45,025 bases of DNA from Planctomycetota bacterium (GTDB taxonomy: Bacteria > Planctomycetota > Phycisphaerae > Phycisphaerales > SM1A02), in the NCBI GenBank assembly GCA_016873255.1, contig VGXR01000015.1, positions 1 through 45,025 on the forward strand, in the 5' to 3' direction. Of this stretch, positions 1 through 36,625 are shown one piece after another. Below the pieces are notes generated by a model. That model was not told the origin of the DNA. It did not search any database and saw only the letters and a list, made by a program, of their open reading frames with translations. Positions within the stretch are counted from its first letter, which is position 1, and every line of letters starts with the position of its first letter. The position numbers were made by a program, and so were the translations under genes.

Positions 1-923
1 GCAACTCCGTCTGGGGCGTCTACGCGAGCGGCAGCACGATCTACGCGGCGACGAATAACGGCTTGAGCGTCTCCTCGAACGGCGGTACGAACTGGACCAA
101 CTACACCACTGCCAACGGGCTCGGGAGCAACACCGTCCGCGGCGTCTACGCGAGCGGCAGCACGATCTACGCGGCGACGAATGGCGGCTTGAGCGTCTCC
201 TCGGACGGCGGCGGGAGCTGGACCAACTACACCACTGCCAACGGGCTCGGGAGCAACACCGCCCGCGGCGTCTACGCGAGCGGCAGCATGATCTACGCGG
301 CGACGTTTGGCGGCTTGAGCGTCTCCTCGAACGGCGGTACGAACTGGACCAACTACACCATGGCCAACGGGCTCGGGGGCAACCTCGTCTCCGGCGTCTA
401 CGCGAGCGGCAGCACGATCTACGCGGCGACGCTCGGTGAGTTCCTTGGCAGTGGCGGCGGCTTGAGCGTCTCCTCGAATGGCGGTACGAACTGGACCAAC
501 TACACCACTGCCAACGGGCTCGGGAGCGACATATTGGGCGTCTACGCGAGCGGCAGCACGATCTACGCGGCGACGCTTGGCGGCTTGAGCGTCTCCTCGA
601 ACGGCGGTACGAACTGGACCACCTACAAAGCTGCCAACGGGCTCGGGAGCAACACCGTCTGGGGCGTCTACGCGAGCGGCAGCACGATCTACGCGGCGAC
701 GAATAACGGCTTGAGCGTCTCCTCGAACGGCGGTACGAACTGGACCAACTACACCACTGCCAACGGGCTCGGGAGCAACAGCGTCCGCGGCGTCTACGCG
801 AGCGGCAGCATGATCTACGCGGCGACGTTTGGCGGCGGCTTGAGCGTTGGCGTTGTCCCCGCCCCCGGCGCGGTCGCGCTCCTGGGCGCGGCAGGCCTCG
901 TCGGCTTGCGCCGCCGCCGCTGA
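1..923 (+). CDS. Secreted Asp-box/propeller repeat protein with PEP-CTERM-like tail (5' partial)
   Basis: The frame is open from base 3, so the N-terminus lies outside the window; the TTG at 63 is a repeat-internal codon, not a credible start. About six copies of a 42-residue unit follow (starts at 63, 189, 315, 462, 585 and 711). Each contains an Asp-box-like SxxGGTNWT turn, an ANGLGSN segment like those in two-component-regulator propellers, and VYASGSTIYAAT strands. Such repeats normally form blades of a beta-propeller. One copy has a 7-residue insert (near 440-460) and one lacks a residue. The protein ends VPAPGAVALLGAAGLVGL plus RRRR, a PEP-CTERM-like sorting tail (proline motif, membrane span, arginines) used for export and cell-surface processing. 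No catalytic residues are visible. The role is unknown; surface binding is an inference. Confidence 0.85.
   Translation, partial: NSVWGVYASGSTIYAATNNGLSVSSNGGTNWTNYTTANGLGSNTVRGVYASGSTIYAATNGGLSVSSDGGGSWTNYTTANGLGSNTARGVYASGSMIYAATFGGLSVSSNGGTNWTNYTMANGLGGNLVSGVYASGSTIYAATLGEFLGSGGGLSVSSNGGTNWTNYTTANGLGSDILGVYASGSTIYAATLGGLSVSSNGGTNWTTYKAANGLGSNTVWGVYASGSTIYAATNNGLSVSSNGGTNWTNYTTANGLGSNSVRGVYASGSMIYAATFGGGLSVGVVPAPGAVALLGAAGLVGLRRRR
63..839 (+). repeat. Tandem 126-bp coding repeats, about six copies
   Basis: Units begin with ttgagcgtctcctcg at 63, 189, 315, 462, 585 and 711 with spacings of 126, 126, 147, 123, 126 and 129 bases. All spacings are multiples of three, so the protein frame is preserved. 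Copies are nearly identical at the DNA level, including synonymous positions, which points to recent duplication or ongoing gene conversion. The bases before 63 are the end of a further copy, so the array extends beyond the window. Confidence 0.95.
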
Positions 924-13150: not shown

Positions 13151-13741
13151 TCAGGATACGGGCTTGGCCGCAAGCGCCGTGTCGATGGCCTTGCGCAGCT
13201 CGTCGCCGGTGGGCTTCACGCCCGAGCCGTAGAACGCCACCGGCACGCCGTCACGGCCCACGAGGTACTTGCCGAAGTTCCAGCTCGGGAGCTTGCCCGT
13301 GGCGGCGGCGAGGAACGCATAGATCTCGCTCTGCCCCTCGCCGGCCTTGGTCTGCACCTTCGACATCATCGGGAAGGTGACGCCGTAGTTCTTGCGGCAG
13401 AACTCGCCGATCTCCGATGAAGTGCCGGGCTCCTGCCCGCCGAAGTCGTTGCACGGGAAGCCGATGACCACCAGTCCCTTGTCCTTGTACTCCTTCCACA
13501 GCGTCTCCAGGTCGGCGTACTGCGGCGTGTAGCCGCACTTGCTGGCGACATTCACCACCAGCACCGCCTTGCCCTTGTAGGCGGCAAGGTCGACGGGCGC
13601 GCCATCGAGGGCAGAGGTCTTGAACGTGAACAGCGACTTGTCCTTCGGTGCGGCCGGGGCAGCCGGCACGGCCTGCCCGGCGCCGAAGCCGGTCACGAGG
13701 GAGACGACGCCGAGGGCCGATGCGATGAGCTTCTTGGGCAT
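13151..13741 (-). CDS. Exported glutathione/thioredoxin-type peroxidase (GPx family)
   Basis: This 196-residue GPx-family thiol peroxidase reduces hydrogen and lipid peroxides. The N-terminal stretch MPKKLIASALGVVSLVTGFGAGQA is a likely signal peptide or membrane anchor, so it probably acts outside the cytoplasm. The peroxidatic cysteine is C69 in NVASKCGYTPQY, and the GFPCNDFGGQEPG segment carries Q103. W154 and N155 in SWNFGKYLV complete the catalytic set. C115 in EIGEFCRKNYG sits where thioredoxin-dependent family members keep their resolving cysteine, which suggests thioredoxin-like rather than glutathione reductant. It uses cysteine, not selenocysteine. It is the first gene of the run leading to folP. 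Confidence 0.9.
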   Translation of the reverse strand: MPKKLIASALGVVSLVTGFGAGQAVPAAPAAPKDKSLFTFKTSALDGAPVDLAAYKGKAVLVVNVASKCGYTPQYADLETLWKEYKDKGLVVIGFPCNDFGGQEPGTSSEIGEFCRKNYGVTFPMMSKVQTKAGEGQSEIYAFLAAATGKLPSWNFGKYLVGRDGVPVAFYGSGVKPTGDELRKAIDTALAAKPVS

Positions 13742-13819
13742 GGGGGCATTGAAGGAAGTTCAACGCCGGCAGGGGCGCTAAAAAGTGGAAAATCGTTGCG
13801 GAATTCATGAGAAGCGCCG

Positions 13820-13836
13820 GAACGCGCGGCGCGTTC
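13820..13836. promoter_or_regulatory. Perfect palindrome GAACGCGC-G-GCGCGTTC
   Basis: Two 8-base arms flank a single central base, in the divergent gap between the peroxidase gene (minus) and the sigma-like gene (plus), 10 bases before the ATG at 13847. Its symmetry and position suggest an operator for a dimeric regulator; an RNA hairpin is the alternative. Confidence 0.45.
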
Positions 13837-13846
13837 TCTTCCGGGG

Positions 13847-14425
13847 ATGGTGCGGAAGCGCCGTCCCCACCCCACCGAAGTCGTTTCCGGGCCGTGTTTC
13901 GAGGCCCGCCCCGGCGCTGCCGCGATGCGAGACCACGATCACAGTTCCGAAGGCATGCGTTCCGAAGGCATGCGTTCCGAAGGCATGCGTTCCGAAGGCA
14001 TGCGTTCCGAAGGCATGCGTTCCGAAGGCATCGAGACGTCCGCGCCCGAGGCGGCAGCCGCGGAGATTCTCGGCACCCACTACCGAACGCTGCGCCGCGC
14101 CGTCGGTGCGGGACCGGCCACGGACGACCGCTCGTCCGCGGCGAGCGCCACGGTGGCGGCAGGGCTGGTGCTGCGCGTGCTTGCCGAGCGGGCGCGGCGG
14201 CGCCAGGCCGCGTCGCCGGCACGCGCCGCCGAGCTCGGCAGGCTGCGGCGGGCGCTGCAGGAACTGGCCGAGGAGGAGCCGCGGCAGGCCGAGGTGCTGT
14301 CGCTCCACGAAGTCGCGGGCCTCGAGGTGGACGAGATCGCGTCGATGCTCGAGATCCCCGCCGACGAAGCCGAGCGCGACCTGCATGCCGCGCGTGCGTG
14401 GCTCGCCCGGCGCGTCACCGGCTGA
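13847..14425 (+). CDS. Short ECF-like sigma-70 region 4 protein
   Basis: The 192-residue frame has a C-terminal part (about 118-190) that looks like the region 4 helix-turn-helix of the planctomycete ECF-like sigma family. LRRALQELAEEEPRQAEVL is followed by LHEVAGLEVDEIASMLEIP and DEAERDLHAARAWLARRV. A helix with LVLRVLAERARRRQ precedes it, as in that family. The core-binding region 2 seems largely missing, so this may be a reduced sigma factor or a DNA-binding regulator derived from one. The true start is uncertain: ATGs at 13847 and 13925, plus five more inside a 15-bp repeat (SEGMR), are all in frame. Its 3' end overlaps that of aroC by 11 bases, in convergent orientation. Confidence 0.65.
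   Translation: MVRKRRPHPTEVVSGPCFEARPGAAAMRDHDHSSEGMRSEGMRSEGMRSEGMRSEGMRSEGIETSAPEAAAAEILGTHYRTLRRAVGAGPATDDRSSAASATVAAGLVLRVLAERARRRQAASPARAAELGRLRRALQELAEEEPRQAEVLSLHEVAGLEVDEIASMLEIPADEAERDLHAARAWLARRVTG
13945..14031. repeat. 15-bp tandem repeat, five full copies and a partial sixth
   Basis: The unit ttccgaaggcatgcg starts at 13945, 13960, 13975, 13990 and 14005, with a truncated copy at 14020. Because 15 is a multiple of three the frame is kept, encoding SEGMR. Each unit carries an in-frame ATG. Copies are identical, so array length is likely to vary between strains. Confidence 0.95.
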
Positions 14426-15608
14426 CCGCAGGGCCTCCGCGCCCGTCGCCGTGCAGCGCGCAGGCGAGGCGCACCGTGGCCTCGTGGTGCGCGCGCAGCT
14501 CGTCCATCGAGTCGCCGCCGAACTTCGCGAGGAACGCGCGCGCCACCTCGAAGGCGACCACGTTCTCCATGACCACGCTCGCCGCGGCCACGGCGCTCAC
14601 GTCGCTGCGCTCGTACTGGCTCCGCTCGGCGGCATGCGTGACGAGGTCGACGCTCGGCATGCCGCGCAGCAGCGTGGAGATCGGCTTCATGGTGCCGCGC
14701 ACGACCACCGGCATGCCGTTGGTCATGCCGCCCTCGAGGCCGCCGGCATTGTTGGTGGGACGCACGAAGCCGAGGTGCGGCTCGGCCGCGCGGGCGCGGT
14801 CGTGCTCGATGGGGTCGTGCACCTGGCTGCCGAAGCGCCACGCGCAGTCGGTGCCGAGGCCGATCTCGACCGCCTTGAATGCCTGGATGCCCATGACGGC
14901 CGCGGCGATGCGCGAGTCGAGCCGCTCGTCCCACTGCACGCAGGTGCCGAGGCCCGGCGGCACTCCGAGGACGTGCGCCTCGACCCGCCCGCCCACGGTG
15001 TCCTGCTCGGTCTTGGCGCGATGGATGTGCTCGACGATGCGCGCGGAGGTCTCGGGATTCGGGCAATAGACCTCGCTCGCGTCGCGCGCGGCGCGCAGCG
15101 CGGCAAGCGATGCGGCATCGACCCTCACCTCGCAGAGCGCGTCGATCGCGCCGCTGACGAAGCCGAAGCACTCGATGCCGAACTCGCGGAGCAGGCAGCG
15201 CGCCAGCGCGCCCGCCGCGGTGCGCGCGGCCGTCTCGCGGGCGCTCGCGCGCTCGAGGGTGCCGCGGCAGTCGGTGGTGAGCCACTTGAGGCTCCCGGCG
15301 AGGTCGGCGTGGCCGGGGCGCGGGCGCGTGACGGGCGGCGTCCGCACGGGATCGTCGAGCCGGCTGTCGGCGTTCGCCACCTCCAGCACGACCGGCGACC
15401 CCAGCGTGATGCCGGCACGGACGCCGCCGAGGATCCGCACGCGGTCGGTCTCGATCCGCTGGCGCGCGCCGCGGCCGTAGCCGCCCTGGCGGCGCGCGAG
15501 CTCCGCGTCGATGAAGCCCGTGTCGACGCGCAGCCCGGCGGGCAGGCCCTCCACGAACGCGAGCATGGTTGGTCCGTGCGACTCGCCTGCGGTGCGGTAG
15601 CTGAGCAT
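14415..15608 (-). CDS. aroC: Chorismate synthase
   Basis: It converts 5-enolpyruvylshikimate-3-phosphate to chorismate, the last common step to aromatic amino acids and folate; it needs reduced FMN and is cytoplasmic. The protein has 397 residues. Signatures include YRTAGESHGP, the RQGGYGRGARQRIETD FMN/substrate region, RPGHADLAG, ERASARETAARTAAG, and the C-terminal PTNNAGGLEGGMTNGMPVVVR and TLLRGMPSVDL. The ATG at 15608 starts MLSYRTAGESHG as in the family; upstream TTG and GTG codons are less likely. It follows aroDE by 24 bases and also has its own -10-like hexamer in that gap. Confidence 0.96.
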   Translation of the reverse strand: MLSYRTAGESHGPTMLAFVEGLPAGLRVDTGFIDAELARRQGGYGRGARQRIETDRVRILGGVRAGITLGSPVVLEVANADSRLDDPVRTPPVTRPRPGHADLAGSLKWLTTDCRGTLERASARETAARTAAGALARCLLREFGIECFGFVSGAIDALCEVRVDAASLAALRAARDASEVYCPNPETSARIVEHIHRAKTEQDTVGGRVEAHVLGVPPGLGTCVQWDERLDSRIAAAVMGIQAFKAVEIGLGTDCAWRFGSQVHDPIEHDRARAAEPHLGFVRPTNNAGGLEGGMTNGMPVVVRGTMKPISTLLRGMPSVDLVTHAAERSQYERSDVSAVAAASVVMENVVAFEVARAFLAKFGGDSMDELRAHHEATVRLACALHGDGRGGPAVSR

Positions 15609-15616
15609 CACGGGCA

Positions 15617-15622
15617 AGGATA
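15617..15622 (-). promoter_or_regulatory. -10 hexamer TATCCT before aroC
   Basis: On the minus strand TATCCT ends 8 bases before the aroC ATG, inside the 24-base gap after aroDE. This suggests an internal leaderless promoter in addition to read-through. Confidence 0.45.
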
Positions 15623-27063: not shown

Positions 27064-28406
27064 CCGGCACGGCTCCCGGCAACCCGAACGGTCCCGAGCG
27101 GACGCTCGAGCGCCTGGCGGCGATGTCGCAGGACGAGCGGTCGGCCTGGGCACGCAGCCTCGGCGCGGGGCTGGCGGCGGCGTGCGACGAGGCGGTGTCG
27201 GCCGCAGAGCGCCGGCTCGCGCGCGAACCGGCGTTCGTGCTCGATGCCGCCGAGGCGATTGCCGCAGCGGCGGCGGCGGCCGGCGCCGCGGTGCAGTCGG
27301 CGCGAGCAATGCGCATCGCCAGCCATGCGCTTGCATACCTCGGCCGGCTTGACGAGGCGATCGCGGTTGCCGGGCGCAGCCGCGAGGCGGCGCTCGCCGC
27401 GGGAGCCCCCGTGGACGCGGCGCGCGCGGACGTGGCCTCGATGCACCCGCTTGCGAAGAGCGGCCGGCCGCTCGAGGCCGTGGAGCGCGGGCTGCGCGCG
27501 CGCGACGCGATGCACGCGGCCGGCGCCGACGCCATGGCCGCACGGGCGGAGCTCAACCTTGCCAACGTGCTTCGCCTCCTCGGGCGCCACGCCGAGGCGC
27601 TGGCATCGCTCGACGCTGCGCTCGCGTCGCTCGGCGCCGACGCCACGGTCGCCGGGCAGGTGCAGAACTCGCGCGGCGAGGTCCTGCTGGCGCTCGGGCG
27701 GATCGGCGACTCCGAGGCGGCGTTCGCAGACGCTCGCCGGCATCCCGGTCGACCCGCGGTTCGACATGGCGGCGCTCGGCCCGGCCAGCGCGGGGCTGCG
27801 CGGCGGTGCACGGCCGCGGGTCCTGCTCACGGGCGGCGGGTTCGGGATCGGCGACATCGAGGCCACGGCCGCCGCGCTCCTGCGCACGCTGCGCTCGGCG
27901 GACGTCACCGTGGTGTGCGGCCGCAACGAGGCGCTCGAGGCAGGCATGCGGGCCCTGGCGGCATCGTGGCCCGCAGGCGACGGGCGAGGAAACTCGCTCG
28001 AGGTGCTTGGCTACACCAAGGAGATGCACCGCATCATGGCGGGCGCCGACGTCCTCGTGGGCAAGCCGGGCGGCCTCACCACCACCGAGGCCAAGGCGCT
28101 CGGGCTGCCGATGGTGCTGCTCAGGCCGATCCCCGGGCAGGAGGAACGGAACGCGCAGGTGCTGGTGGAGTCGGGCGCGGCGGTGCGCACGCGCGGCCCC
28201 ATCGATGCCGCGGAGGCGGTCGCGCGGCTCCTTGCCGAGCCGTCGGCACTGCGCGCGATGGCGGGCGCGGCGGCCGCGAACAGCCGACCGCTCGCGGCCT
28301 TCGACGTCGCGCGGCGCGTAATGGCCGAGGCAGCGCGCCGGGGCAGCCCGCGACTGCCGCGGCTGGTCGGCATGAGCGCGGCCTGAGCCCGATGAGCGCG
28401 GCCTGA
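27060..28406 (+). CDS. TPR protein, chimeric: only about residues 1-223 are TPR-like
   Basis: The GTG at 27060 overlaps the previous stop (GTGA). Residues 1-223 form consecutive TPR helical pairs: ARAMRIASHALAYLGRLDEA, SGRPLEAVERGLRARDAM, LNLANVLRLLGRHAEALASL and NSRGEVLLALGRIGDSEAAF. This is the usual N-terminal scaffold of TPR-CHAT proteins encoded after an ECF sigma factor. From about base 27730 this frame stops looking like protein (arginine/glycine-rich nonsense), while the +1 frame begins a glycosyltransferase. The open frame therefore continues to 28406 only as a shadow. The expected further TPRs and CHAT protease-like domain are absent. Either a deletion fused two genes out of frame or the assembly is chimeric. 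Confidence 0.6.
   Translation: MTGTAPGNPNGPERTLERLAAMSQDERSAWARSLGAGLAAACDEAVSAAERRLAREPAFVLDAAEAIAAAAAAAGAAVQSARAMRIASHALAYLGRLDEAIAVAGRSREAALAAGAPVDAARADVASMHPLAKSGRPLEAVERGLRARDAMHAAGADAMAARAELNLANVLRLLGRHAEALASLDAALASLGADATVAGQVQNSRGEVLLALGRIGDSEAAFADARRHPGRPAVRHGGARPGQRGAARRCTAAGPAHGRRVRDRRHRGHGRRAPAHAALGGRHRGVRPQRGARGRHAGPGGIVARRRRARKLARGAWLHQGDAPHHGGRRRPRGQAGRPHHHRGQGARAADGAAQADPRAGGTERAGAGGVGRGGAHARPHRCRGGGRAAPCRAVGTARDGGRGGREQPTARGLRRRAARNGRGSAPGQPATAAAGRHERGLSPMSAA
27730..28386 (+). pseudogene. C-terminal half of a UgtP/MGDG-synthase-like glycosyltransferase (GT28)
   Basis: In the +1 frame relative to the TPR gene, about 218 residues match the nucleotide-sugar-binding half of processive diacylglycerol glucosyltransferases. 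GIPVDPRF is followed by RVLLTGGGFGIGDIEAT, VTVVCGRNEAL, LEVLGYTKEMHRIMAGADVLV, GKPGGLTTTEAKALGLPMVL and IPGQEERNAQ. In UgtP-type enzymes this half binds UDP-sugar and makes membrane glycolipids. The acceptor-binding N-terminal half, about 170 residues, is missing, and no start codon or ribosome-binding site precedes GIPVDPRF. It ends MSAA then stop inside a 20-bp repeat. It is probably inactive unless a frameshift makes a TPR-glycosyltransferase fusion. Confidence 0.75.
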
Positions 28407-28471
28407 GCCCGATGAGCGCGGCCTGAGCCCGATGAGCGCGGCCTGAGCCGCACGAGCGCGGCCTGAGCGGC
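28372..28471. repeat. 20-bp tandem repeat carrying ATG...TGA, nearly five copies
   Basis: The unit atgagcgcggcctgagcccg starts at 28372, 28392, 28412 and 28432; a diverged fifth copy is at 28452. Each unit contains ATG-AGC-GCG-GCC-TGA, that is MSAA and a stop. Because 20 is not a multiple of three, successive copies place this stop in all three frames. It separates the glycosyltransferase remnant from thiC (convergent). Confidence 0.95.
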
Positions 28472-33137: not shown

Positions 33138-34184
33138 TCAGCCCCAGGCCGCGAGCATCAGCCCGAGGTCGAACCCGTTCACGGTGCCATCGCGGTTCAG
33201 GTCTGCGCCGCTGGGCTGGCCGTTGGTTCCCCATGCAGCAAGCAGCAGGCCGAGGTCGAACCCGTTCACGGTGCGGTCGCCGTTCAGGTCGCCGAACACC
33301 GGCTGCAGCGTGCCGAGCGCGACGATCGAGCTGCTGCCGGTGGTGGCCGACGTGCCGTCGGAGAATGTGCCGCTCATCAGCAGGTTGGCGGTGGCGCCGG
33401 GCGGCAGGATGGTCGGCAGCGCGAACGGCATGTTCACGAGCGGCGCCGGCGCGGGGACCGGCACGGTCTCGTTGACGGTGCCCTGCGAGGTCAGCGTGGC
33501 CTGGTCGCCGCTGAAGGTCGCGGTGCCGGTCATCACCACGCTGCCCGGGGAGGTGATGGTGAACGGAGCGCCGAGCGCGGTGCCCTCCACCGTCACGTTC
33601 ACGGGGACGGTCACGGCGAACGACCAGGACCCGTCGGCGTTGGCGGTCGCGGCGCCGATGGCGGGGCCCGACTGGACGGCATTGGCCATGGTGAGCGCAC
33701 CGCTGTCGAGCGGGGCGTCGAAGTTCGACACGCCGATGAACGTGGAGCTCGGCGCGAACGTGCGGAATAGGGAGTAGGTCAGCGTTATCCGCGTCTCGAT
33801 GGTGCCGCCCTGCGCACCGAGCGCGTTGAGCGCAAGCCCAGTGACCTCCACTGCCCCGGTCGCGCGGTCGAGCCCGAAGACGTAGGAGCCGGTCGGGTTG
33901 GTGTTGGCGATGACGGCACGCGGGCGCACGACCGAGGTGAACGGGATCGCCACGTTGCCCGACCCGCCGAACAGCCCCGGGCGCGTCTGCGTGCCGGTCG
34001 GGTTCGTCACGGCGTCGTAGTTGCCGATCCACGTGCCGACGAGCGGCAGCTGGATCTGCGTGGTCTGGCTGTAGGTGCTGGTCGGCGCGATGGTGCACGC
34101 CCAGCGGTCCGTGGCCCCGAATGCGGGGGCCACGGCACACAGCGCGGCAGCGGCGAGGAAGTGTCCGATTCGGGCGTGCGCCAT
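33138..34184 (-). CDS. Secreted protein with dockerin-like C-terminus, function unknown
   Basis: This is a 348-residue protein. A signal peptide (MAHARIGHFLAAAALCAVAPAFGA) precedes a threonine/glycine-rich beta body (GTWIGNYDAV, GLDRATGAVEVTGLALN, WSFAVTVPVNVTVEGTALG) and a proline-rich linker (VPVPAPAPL). The last 51 residues are two calcium-loop units, DLNGDRTVNGFDLG and DLNRDGTVNGFDLG, each ending LLLAAWG-like. They resemble type I dockerins; in planctomycetes the same tag is very common on exported proteins and need not mean cellulosomes. The ATG at 34184 gives the signal peptide and has TACTTT six bases upstream. No enzyme family is recognised. Confidence 0.85.
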   Translation of the reverse strand: MAHARIGHFLAAAALCAVAPAFGATDRWACTIAPTSTYSQTTQIQLPLVGTWIGNYDAVTNPTGTQTRPGLFGGSGNVAIPFTSVVRPRAVIANTNPTGSYVFGLDRATGAVEVTGLALNALGAQGGTIETRITLTYSLFRTFAPSSTFIGVSNFDAPLDSGALTMANAVQSGPAIGAATANADGSWSFAVTVPVNVTVEGTALGAPFTITSPGSVVMTGTATFSGDQATLTSQGTVNETVPVPAPAPLVNMPFALPTILPPGATANLLMSGTFSDGTSATTGSSSIVALGTLQPVFGDLNGDRTVNGFDLGLLLAAWGTNGQPSGADLNRDGTVNGFDLGLMLAAWG

Positions 34185-34279: not shown

Positions 34280-36625
34280 TCAGGACGGGGTCCAGGCCCC
34301 GAGCAGCAGCCCCAGGTCGAACCCGTCCACCGTGCCGTCGCCGTTCAGGTCGGCCGGGCCAGGCTGGCCCCACCCGCCGAGCAGCAGCCCCAGGTCGAAC
34401 CCGTTGACCGCCCCGTCGCCGTTCAGGTCGCCGGGCACGCCGCACCCGCTGCAGGACAGCGCCAGCCAGTAGCGGAGGCCGTCGAAGCCGGGAACGGGCG
34501 GCGGGTCATCGGGCGGGGGCGGGTTGTCGGGGTCGATGTCGGTGCACGGCTGACCGCCGCGCACCGGGCCCACGTCCTGGCCCAGCGTCAGCACCGCGTA
34601 CCACGGTCCGCCGTCGATGCACGCATCGAGCACGATCGGCGCGCAGCGCCCGCCGAACGCGGTGCGCTCCACGGAGAGCGGGCCGGCCATGTCGCCGCGC
34701 ACGAGGTGCAGTTCCGCGGGGAACTCCGCGTCCACCGTGAGCTGCACGCGCCTCGGGCCGCCGCTTCCCAGCGCATACCAGTCCCCGTCGCGCGGGGCGC
34801 CGGTGGTGCACGTGCCGGTGAAGACCTGCCCGCACGCGATCGGCTGCGACTCGCCATTGCGCGTGGCGCCGTCGTTGGTGCGCCGGTAGCACGGCTCGGC
34901 CTCGTCGATGGCGCCTGCGGGAACGGTCACGGTGCACGGCGGGAGGCCGCAGAGGGCGGCGACGCGTGCCACGCACACCCAGTCCCACGTGGCGCCGTCG
35001 CAGTAGCCGTCGAGCGGGGTGACGCGCTCGCAGCACGCCGGATCCTCGCAGCCCGGATCATCGTGCACGGTGTCGCACGCCCCGTAGGAGGGGCAGACCA
35101 GGCCATTGCACTCCGTGTCCGCGAGGTCCGCGCACATCTGGTCCCACGCCGTGGCGCAGCACTCCGGGTTGATCTTGCAGACGGCCTCGCAGCACGGGGT
35201 CGTGAAGCAGCCGGGCGTCGGATGCGGCTCGTCGCAGCGGCCGCCGGCGCCCTGCGGGCCGCATGCCGCGGGCGGGCCGAACGCGCTGCCGGCGTGGGCG
35301 CCGTCGCGCGGCTCGGGGCCGGCGCCCGCCAGCATCAGCGCCACCTCGCACGAGGGCGACGGCCCGTGCGAGAAGCTCGCGCGGGGCGGCGGACCGGCGG
35401 GTGGGCCGTCGCCTGCCCCTGCGAACGAGAAGCACGCACGGAGGTTGCGGTAGCCGAGCGCCCAGTGCCCGGCGATGTCCGCGATCACGATGTCGGTGTC
35501 GCAGTCGGCGTCGAGGTTCGCGCACAGGAATGCGCGCCCGAATGCGGCGTAGTCGAGCTGCCCCGCGGGCATGAACGCCACGGTGCCGCCCGTGCTCACG
35601 TTGCGCCACAGGAACACGTTTCCCGGGAGCGCGGTGCTCGTCACCGCGTCCAGCCTGCCGTCGCCGTCGAAGTCGCCCAGCTCGCCGGCCCAGTGGTACC
35701 CGGCGCCGTTGGGCGCGGATGCCACGAGCACGCGCTCGGCGAAGCCGCCGGCGCCGTCGTTGCGGAACACCACCAGCGGCTGCGCGCCGGTCGAGTTGAG
35801 GAGCGGCGCGAGGATGTCGACGTCGCCGTCGTTGTCGACGTCACCGAGGTCGAACGACACCACGGCCGGTCGCGTCACCCCGGGGAAGTCGGGCGCCATC
35901 CATGCACGCGGAGGCGCGAACGTGCCGCCGGGCCGGCCCATGAACACGTCGAACCTGCGCGTGCCGATGCAGCCCACCACCAGGTCGGTGCGACCGTCGC
36001 CGTCGAGGTCGGCGGCGAGCGTGTCCTGCGGCCCGGGCAAGCCGCCGCTCCAGGCATCCACGCGCAGCCGCTGGCGCACGGCGAAGCTGCCGAGCCCGTC
36101 GTTGGCGAGGATCGCCACGTGCTCGCTGCCGTAGAAGGTCACTGCGAGGTCCGGGTCGCCGTCGCCGTCGAAGTCGCCGCCCGCCATCGAGCGCGGCTCG
36201 CGGTCGAAGCGCACGGGCGCATCCGGGACCATGGCCCCGCCCGCGCCGCGCCGCAGCACCTGCAGCCGCCCGCGGTACGAGCGGATGGCAAGCACCAGCT
36301 CCTGCGCGCCGTCGCCGTCGATGTCCATGGCGATGGCGTCGTCGGTCTGGCCGTCGACCTGCAGCGTCCGGATGGCACCGAAGCTGCCGTCCGCGAGGAT
36401 CGGCGCCCAGTTGAGGAGGCCATCGGCATCGCGACCGGTGAGGAGCAGGTCCTGGCGCCCGTCGCCGTCCATGTCGAAGAGCCGCACCCGCGTCGGCGCA
36501 TGGCCGGGCGTGCAGTCCACGTACACGGGCTCCGCCTCGAACGCGAGCTGTGCGTGCACCGCATGCGGTGCCGCGCAGAGGGCGGCGAGGGCGGCGAGGC
36601 GGAGGTGGCGCTGGAGTCGGTTCAT
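34280..36625 (-). CDS. Secreted FG-GAP/VCBS propeller protein with Cys-rich and dockerin-like domains
   Basis: This is a 781-residue protein. After a signal peptide (ending PHAVHA), residues about 40-400 hold repeated calcium-binding loops such as DMDGDGRQDLLL, DIDGDGAQELVL, DFDGDGDPDLAV, DLDGDGRTDLVV and DVDNDGDVDIL, the FG-GAP/VCBS pattern of an integrin-like beta-propeller. Residues about 430-560 are cysteine-rich, with PGCFTTPCCEAVC and CCATAWDQMCADLA, a repeat typical of Phycisphaerales exported proteins. Residues about 735-781 are two dockerin-like loops. Adhesion or matrix binding is the usual guess for such proteins. The ATG lies 12 bases after the stop of the protease gene, so it probably belongs to that operon. 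Confidence 0.9.
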   Translation of the reverse strand: MNRLQRHLRLAALAALCAAPHAVHAQLAFEAEPVYVDCTPGHAPTRVRLFDMDGDGRQDLLLTGRDADGLLNWAPILADGSFGAIRTLQVDGQTDDAIAMDIDGDGAQELVLAIRSYRGRLQVLRRGAGGAMVPDAPVRFDREPRSMAGGDFDGDGDPDLAVTFYGSEHVAILANDGLGSFAVRQRLRVDAWSGGLPGPQDTLAADLDGDGRTDLVVGCIGTRRFDVFMGRPGGTFAPPRAWMAPDFPGVTRPAVVSFDLGDVDNDGDVDILAPLLNSTGAQPLVVFRNDGAGGFAERVLVASAPNGAGYHWAGELGDFDGDGRLDAVTSTALPGNVFLWRNVSTGGTVAFMPAGQLDYAAFGRAFLCANLDADCDTDIVIADIAGHWALGYRNLRACFSFAGAGDGPPAGPPPRASFSHGPSPSCEVALMLAGAGPEPRDGAHAGSAFGPPAACGPQGAGGRCDEPHPTPGCFTTPCCEAVCKINPECCATAWDQMCADLADTECNGLVCPSYGACDTVHDDPGCEDPACCERVTPLDGYCDGATWDWVCVARVAALCGLPPCTVTVPAGAIDEAEPCYRRTNDGATRNGESQPIACGQVFTGTCTTGAPRDGDWYALGSGGPRRVQLTVDAEFPAELHLVRGDMAGPLSVERTAFGGRCAPIVLDACIDGGPWYAVLTLGQDVGPVRGGQPCTDIDPDNPPPPDDPPPVPGFDGLRYWLALSCSGCGVPGDLNGDGAVNGFDLGLLLGGWGQPGPADLNGDGTVDGFDLGLLLGAWTPS

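Follow-up and report, generated by a model that had tools for sequence, protein, structure and literature searches.

Near the 5' end of a sigma-like gene in the window (the whole stretch of 45,025 nucleotides analysed here), a 15-bp unit is repeated in tandem, and each complete copy carries an in-frame ATG. The question that this locus raises is whether the repeated start codons are the point of the array or incidental to a short repeat in a gene that tolerates it.

The array and its absence from relatives

The five full units (TTCCGAAGGCATGCG) are identical and start at 13945, 13960, 13975, 13990, and 14005 (span 13945–14019); the sixth (TTCCGAAGGCAT, 14020–14031) is incomplete. In the frame of the open reading frame (ORF) at 13847–14425, the array translates as (SEGMR)x5-SEGI, with one ATG per full unit, at 13955, 13970, 13985, 14000, and 14015. 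Tandem Repeats Finder (TRF) analysis thus bore out the original prediction of five identical, ATG-bearing units encoding SEGMR repeats, as well as its point that a change in copy number would keep the frame, the array being in frame and the unit 15 bp long. Each unit contains GCATGC, which is its own reverse complement, so that every unit has an ATG on its minus strand as well; the minus-strand frame with this ATG translates as MPSER repeats. The perfection of the array over 88 bp excludes a chance origin, and with a 100% match it ranks among the most perfect of 45 arrays found in the genome. Allowing up to two mismatches, the unit had seven matches in the 2.78-Mb draft genome, namely the five array units and two isolated sites with two mismatches each, and nowhere else in that assembly does it form an array.

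Table 1. Positions of the features discussed, in window coordinates
Feature	Position	Strand	Remarks
Glutathione peroxidase (GPx) gene	13151..13741	-	Divergent neighbour; PF00255, E 3.7e-38
TTCCGGGG	13839..13849	+	Common to relatives' leaders; in-frame ATG 13847 directly after (DNA alignment)
ACC at putative site of relatives' start ATG	13874..13876	+	From leader alignment and start contexts
Sigma-like gene	13925..14425	+	ATG 13925; open frame with ATG from 13847; region 4 present, ~24 region 2 residues missing
15-bp tandem array	13944..14031	+	5.9 copies, 100% match, TRF score 176
aroC, chorismate synthase gene	14415..15617	-	Convergent neighbour; PF01264, E 1.4e-100
Second young array	28372..28468	+	20 bp x 4.8; first unit is the 3' end of gene 27244-28386, stop codon included

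The sigma-like gene lies between the GPx gene and aroC, which overlaps the end of its ORF by 11 bp. Of 13 same-genus genomes, 11 share this gene order; the exceptions are G001, which gave no match to either query, and G002, whose aroC is at the edge of a contig and whose best sigma match falls on a different one. None of the 13 is of the same species, and the nearest aroC is 88% identical. Counting copies in relatives, a check named by the original prediction, revealed no TRF array in the N-terminal region of the sigma-like gene at any of the 11 syntenic same-genus loci. The array is therefore young and private to its lineage, in agreement with the recent origin originally proposed, although its perfection could also reflect recent selection or ongoing exchange.

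Short arrays occur at this locus in relatives as well, all of them non-coding (L012; L014, L015, and L016 near GPx; L013 after the sigma stop). G004 has a 19 bp x 5.1 array directly after the sigma stop (L012_G004 oriented 1739-1834), 13-bp repeats lie upstream near GPx in G010 (x 4.0), G009 (x 2.6), and G003 (x 1.9), and G011 has 5-bp arrays downstream. The leader that separates GPx from the sigma-like gene (window 13742–13850; same interval in L009–L012 and L017) has stretches common to relatives (GTGGAAAATC-like and GCGCGTT...TTCCGGGG), which are possibly a shared promoter region. A promoter scan found no sigma-70-like site, a result of low weight in this bacterial group. The available text of a Shewanella study describes a glutathione peroxidase that depends on an extracytoplasmic function (ECF) sigma factor (PMC4336711), and the conserved GPx neighbour therefore deserves a test.

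The host gene and its start codons

Profile searches showed that the ORF matches PF07638 (E 1.5e-10, residues 126–190 of the ORF from 13847) and PF08281 (E 1.7e-08, region 4 only), both above cut-off, and it carries the region 4 helix-turn-helix of ECF-type sigma factors (PF07638 / TIGR02999). Region 2 is not complete: profile matches begin at position 109 at the earliest, the TIGR02999 score lies below the cut-off (56 versus 126.15 bits), and an alignment with ten orthologs from their start revealed the loss of the residues noted in Table 1 together with a large part of the linker that joins regions 2 and 4. The sigma-like protein of the original prediction is thus upheld for region 4 and fails as a complete sigma factor; this product is no true sigma factor, and the name is valid for region 4 only. 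The ortholog N-termini in this alignment are hypervariable in both sequence and length.

Over the region-4 block, divergence from seven orthologs was 0.29–0.45, 0.27–0.33, and 0.37–0.63 at codon positions 1, 2, and 3, nearly flat across positions, compared with 0.16, 0.12, and 0.51 for the comparison pair G005 and G012. The sigma-like gene therefore evolves fast and has a weakened third-position bias. Its reading frame is intact downstream of the array, with a GC3 of 0.90 over 14033–14422, and on these grounds the gene may function in a changed role. AlphaFold2, run with an 11-sequence alignment, gave mean pLDDT values per block of 79–92 over most of region 4, 48–64 over the region-2 remnant, and 35–37 over the repeat tail, which is accordingly predicted to be disordered.

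In relatives, the start context reads CACCCC-ATG (G005, G013, and G004) or CGCTCC-ATG (G012), while the window reads CCCCACCCC-ACC. This ACC sits 27 nt past TTCCGGGG, the same spacing as the ATG in G012, and because it replaces the relatives' ATG at equal distance from that motif, the inherited start codon seems to have been lost. The in-frame candidates left are the two ATGs upstream of the array (13847 and 13925) plus those of the five full units, seven in all; past 14015, the next in-frame start codons fall within the domain. Taken together, the loss of part of region 2, the apparent loss of the inherited start, and the weakened third-position bias suggest that the gene is under relaxed constraint and perhaps decaying. 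No intact full-length copy replacing the cut-down gene was found elsewhere in the genome, where other matches scored at most 28.2 bits. The G007 ortholog (L017, G007:C109), whose reading frame contains a TAG between regions 2 and 4, is either a pseudogene or a draft error; the TAG fits decay of the gene, yet a draft error is possible.

Explanations for the array

We consider it probable that the array is a young, lineage-private minisatellite produced by repeated tandem duplication of a 15-bp segment and tolerated in a weakly constrained 5' end, with incidental ATGs and little or no effect on dosage. A 15-bp segment would have been duplicated in tandem, by replication slippage or a similar process, and would have grown to six copies in the least constrained part of the locus, either the disordered, hypervariable N-terminal tail or the 5' leader of a sigma-like remnant reduced to region 4. 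We propose that it survived because this location is weakly constrained and a unit of 15 bp always leaves the frame intact. Changes in copy number would then alter the length of a disordered SEGMR tail, or of the leader, and dosage would change little or not at all. The original prediction instead made the repeated ATGs the point of the array: each unit would supply a start codon, and slippage would set the dose of the regulator by altering how many initiation sites there are and how long the N-terminus is. We regard this tuning switch as very unlikely. It requires both multiple initiation and copy-number change, which is possible but unsupported, and what speaks for it is the presence of five in-frame ATGs, the apparent loss of the inherited one, the perfect identity of the copies, and a unit that maintains the frame. 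Among the 45 arrays of the genome, however, units with an ATG on either strand number eight, against 11.7 expected from random segments of the same lengths (95% range 6–18). With ATG at chance level, a start-codon repeat is a look that an ordinary array can have here; ATG as a selected feature of the unit is unsupported, and the in-frame ATGs look like incidental unit content. The switch is further weakened by the absence of the array from all orthologs, by a fast-evolving host protein without part of region 2, and by the GCAUGC palindromes, which pair mutually in the predicted RNA fold of the repeat. In addition, a Shine-Dalgarno core at -18 to -5 is missing from all seven candidate ATGs; this is weak evidence because, among 398 genes of this genome, just 103 have one, compared with 52 at a control position.

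The array might also act as a leader element, with translation starting at the final ATG (14015) and the copies before it forming a 5' leader, which would fold or bind a regulator. The tail from 14015 is about as long as that of the closest orthologs, codon scoring selected 14015 as the start, and the repeat is predicted to fold more stably than its shuffles (z -2.91, with 0 of 200 equally stable). This strong predicted folding leaves room for a leader role of the array, but good folding is expected of any perfect array with a palindromic unit, the array is not conserved, and the peptide from 13925 (MRDHDHSSEG) resembles MNHSSDHSEG of G013, which favours a coding array; we therefore consider a leader element unlikely. 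Hardly any credence attaches to an assembly artefact that produced the copy number or the whole array. The genome is a 152-contig draft, but 88 bp with unique flanks can be spanned by ordinary reads, and the arrays of the genome have many different units, several of them with internal sequence variants.

Arrays across the genome and at gene ends

To place the minisatellite in its genomic setting, arrays were counted in 1.245 of 2.78 Mb (the window and 60 stretches) at a period of 10–40, at least three copies, and at least 90% match. This search yielded 45 arrays, or 36 per Mb, with a mean unit GC of 0.75, in a non-random sample of stretches lying within the initial 80 kb of the longer contigs. 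An equal search of relatives, in samples that were likewise non-random (contigs known from earlier matches or low-numbered), revealed 0 arrays in 236 kb of G005 (GC 0.722, compared with 0.717 for the genome's own sample), 1 in 398 kb of eight other genus genomes (GC 0.638), 1 in 400 kb of G022 of the same family, and 4 in 155 kb of G004, including the locus with an array already seen. Each array has its own 12–27-bp unit. A dispersed element with a common unit was rejected, since the sigma-gene unit is arrayed nowhere else and the other arrays have other units. Loss of MutS as a cause of the arrays was unsupported, as the MutS gene, the sole repair gene looked for, is present. For arrays inside genes, the period was divisible by three in 11 of 12, as expected if frame-keeping arrays alone survive. 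Longer repeats in the window (1–836, 33142–33305, and 34302–34467), with periods of 126, 87, and 78 bp and 78–81% match, are likely protein-domain repeats and not young arrays.

The second array in the window, between thiC and gene 27244-28386, was absent from 11 of 11 relatives compared, so both window arrays are private to the lineage. Of the 21 arrays in the first 845 kb that pass a strict threshold (at least 93% match), 10 start 2–29 nt before a predicted gene end and take in all or part of the stop codon, nine TGA and one TAG (L069:15461, L073:1416, L078:1412, L081:17139, L091:3264, L091:18907, L099:18494, L102:2756, L103:8079, and window:28372). Their units are unrelated, with the stop codon of the gene at the array start. 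At 90% match or more, 11 of 22 non-internal arrays in the same 845 kb cross a gene 3' end, compared with 1.4 expected and a maximum of 6 in 400 simulations. A second gene model gave 10 of 19 against 0.9 expected, with the arrays at L091:18907, L102, and L103 switching class between the two models. The pattern was first noticed in these 845 kb and afterwards tested on a new 400 kb, using the gene model of the strict-array analysis and the array thresholds of the 11-of-22 count. In this later sample the value was 4 of 10 against 0.8 expected, reached in 12 of 2000 simulations; the further stop-spanning arrays are L165:17372, L166:12902, L171:4596, and L171:14850. The excess rests on a custom simple gene finder and a simple null of uniformly placed tolerated duplications. 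A duplication that includes the stop codon is tolerated because the protein is unchanged, and the excess stays unexplained by tolerance. No study of stop-spanning minisatellites in this group turned up in literature searches, judged by titles and abstract openings.

The sigma-gene array spans no stop codon and is a start-side case. It is conceivable, although doubtful, that a lineage-specific, recently active process amplifies short gene-end segments in tandem, chiefly across stop codons, and that the sigma-gene array is its start-side product, which would have added start codons near the lost inherited one. One array (L078:1412-1541, G000:C14) is a close parallel to that of the sigma gene: it starts within the end of an upstream gene, including the stop codon, and its seven 15-bp units encode in-frame MSSAD or LSSAD ahead of a lipoprotein-like signal sequence.

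The array itself belongs to a known type, the young in-frame minisatellite. Mycobacterial MIRU elements are repeats at gene junctions that may include stop and start codons; they form a family of related, longer units, whereas the arrays described here have sequence-unrelated units. The TAACTGA repeats of Beggiatoaceae, in the accessible portion of their description (PMC4679880), are intergenic and share placement at gene boundaries, but there one common heptamer is dispersed through the genome. Borg tandem repeats, as far as the source was available (PMC9879509), are head-to-tail, perfect or near-perfect, and formed recently and independently, with units divisible by three in ORFs and a disordered product. 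The array resembles them in its perfection, its restriction to one lineage, and the divisibility by three seen in internal arrays of this genome. It differs in that Borg units are A-rich, an enrichment that the GC-rich units here do not show, and in that Borgs are archaeal extrachromosomal elements whereas this is a bacterial draft genome. Borg ORF repeats are, moreover, described there as strongly selected, whereas we read the sigma-gene array as probably near-neutral. Like the phase-variable contingency locus licA of Haemophilus, according to the parts of that report at hand (PMC2992063), the sigma-like gene has a 5' repeat with several start codons nearby. The licA starts lie upstream of the repeat, while ATGs here also lie within it, and a change in licA copy number shifts the frame because the unit is 4 bp, which the 15-bp unit never does. 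Switching of expression by a shift in frame or spacing, as at contingency loci, is thus not a property of this array; a change in leader length may have an effect.

Taken alone, a young in-frame minisatellite within a gene under weak constraint is ordinary, and the wider interest of this array lies in the genome-wide setting. The contrast in array density with G005 at equal GC, together with the stop-spanning excess, makes the genus a natural comparison for what starts arrays, and such a comparison could ask whether the cause is mutational or selective. If the amplification of gene-end segments were true, this bacterium would be rewriting its own gene boundaries through minisatellites.
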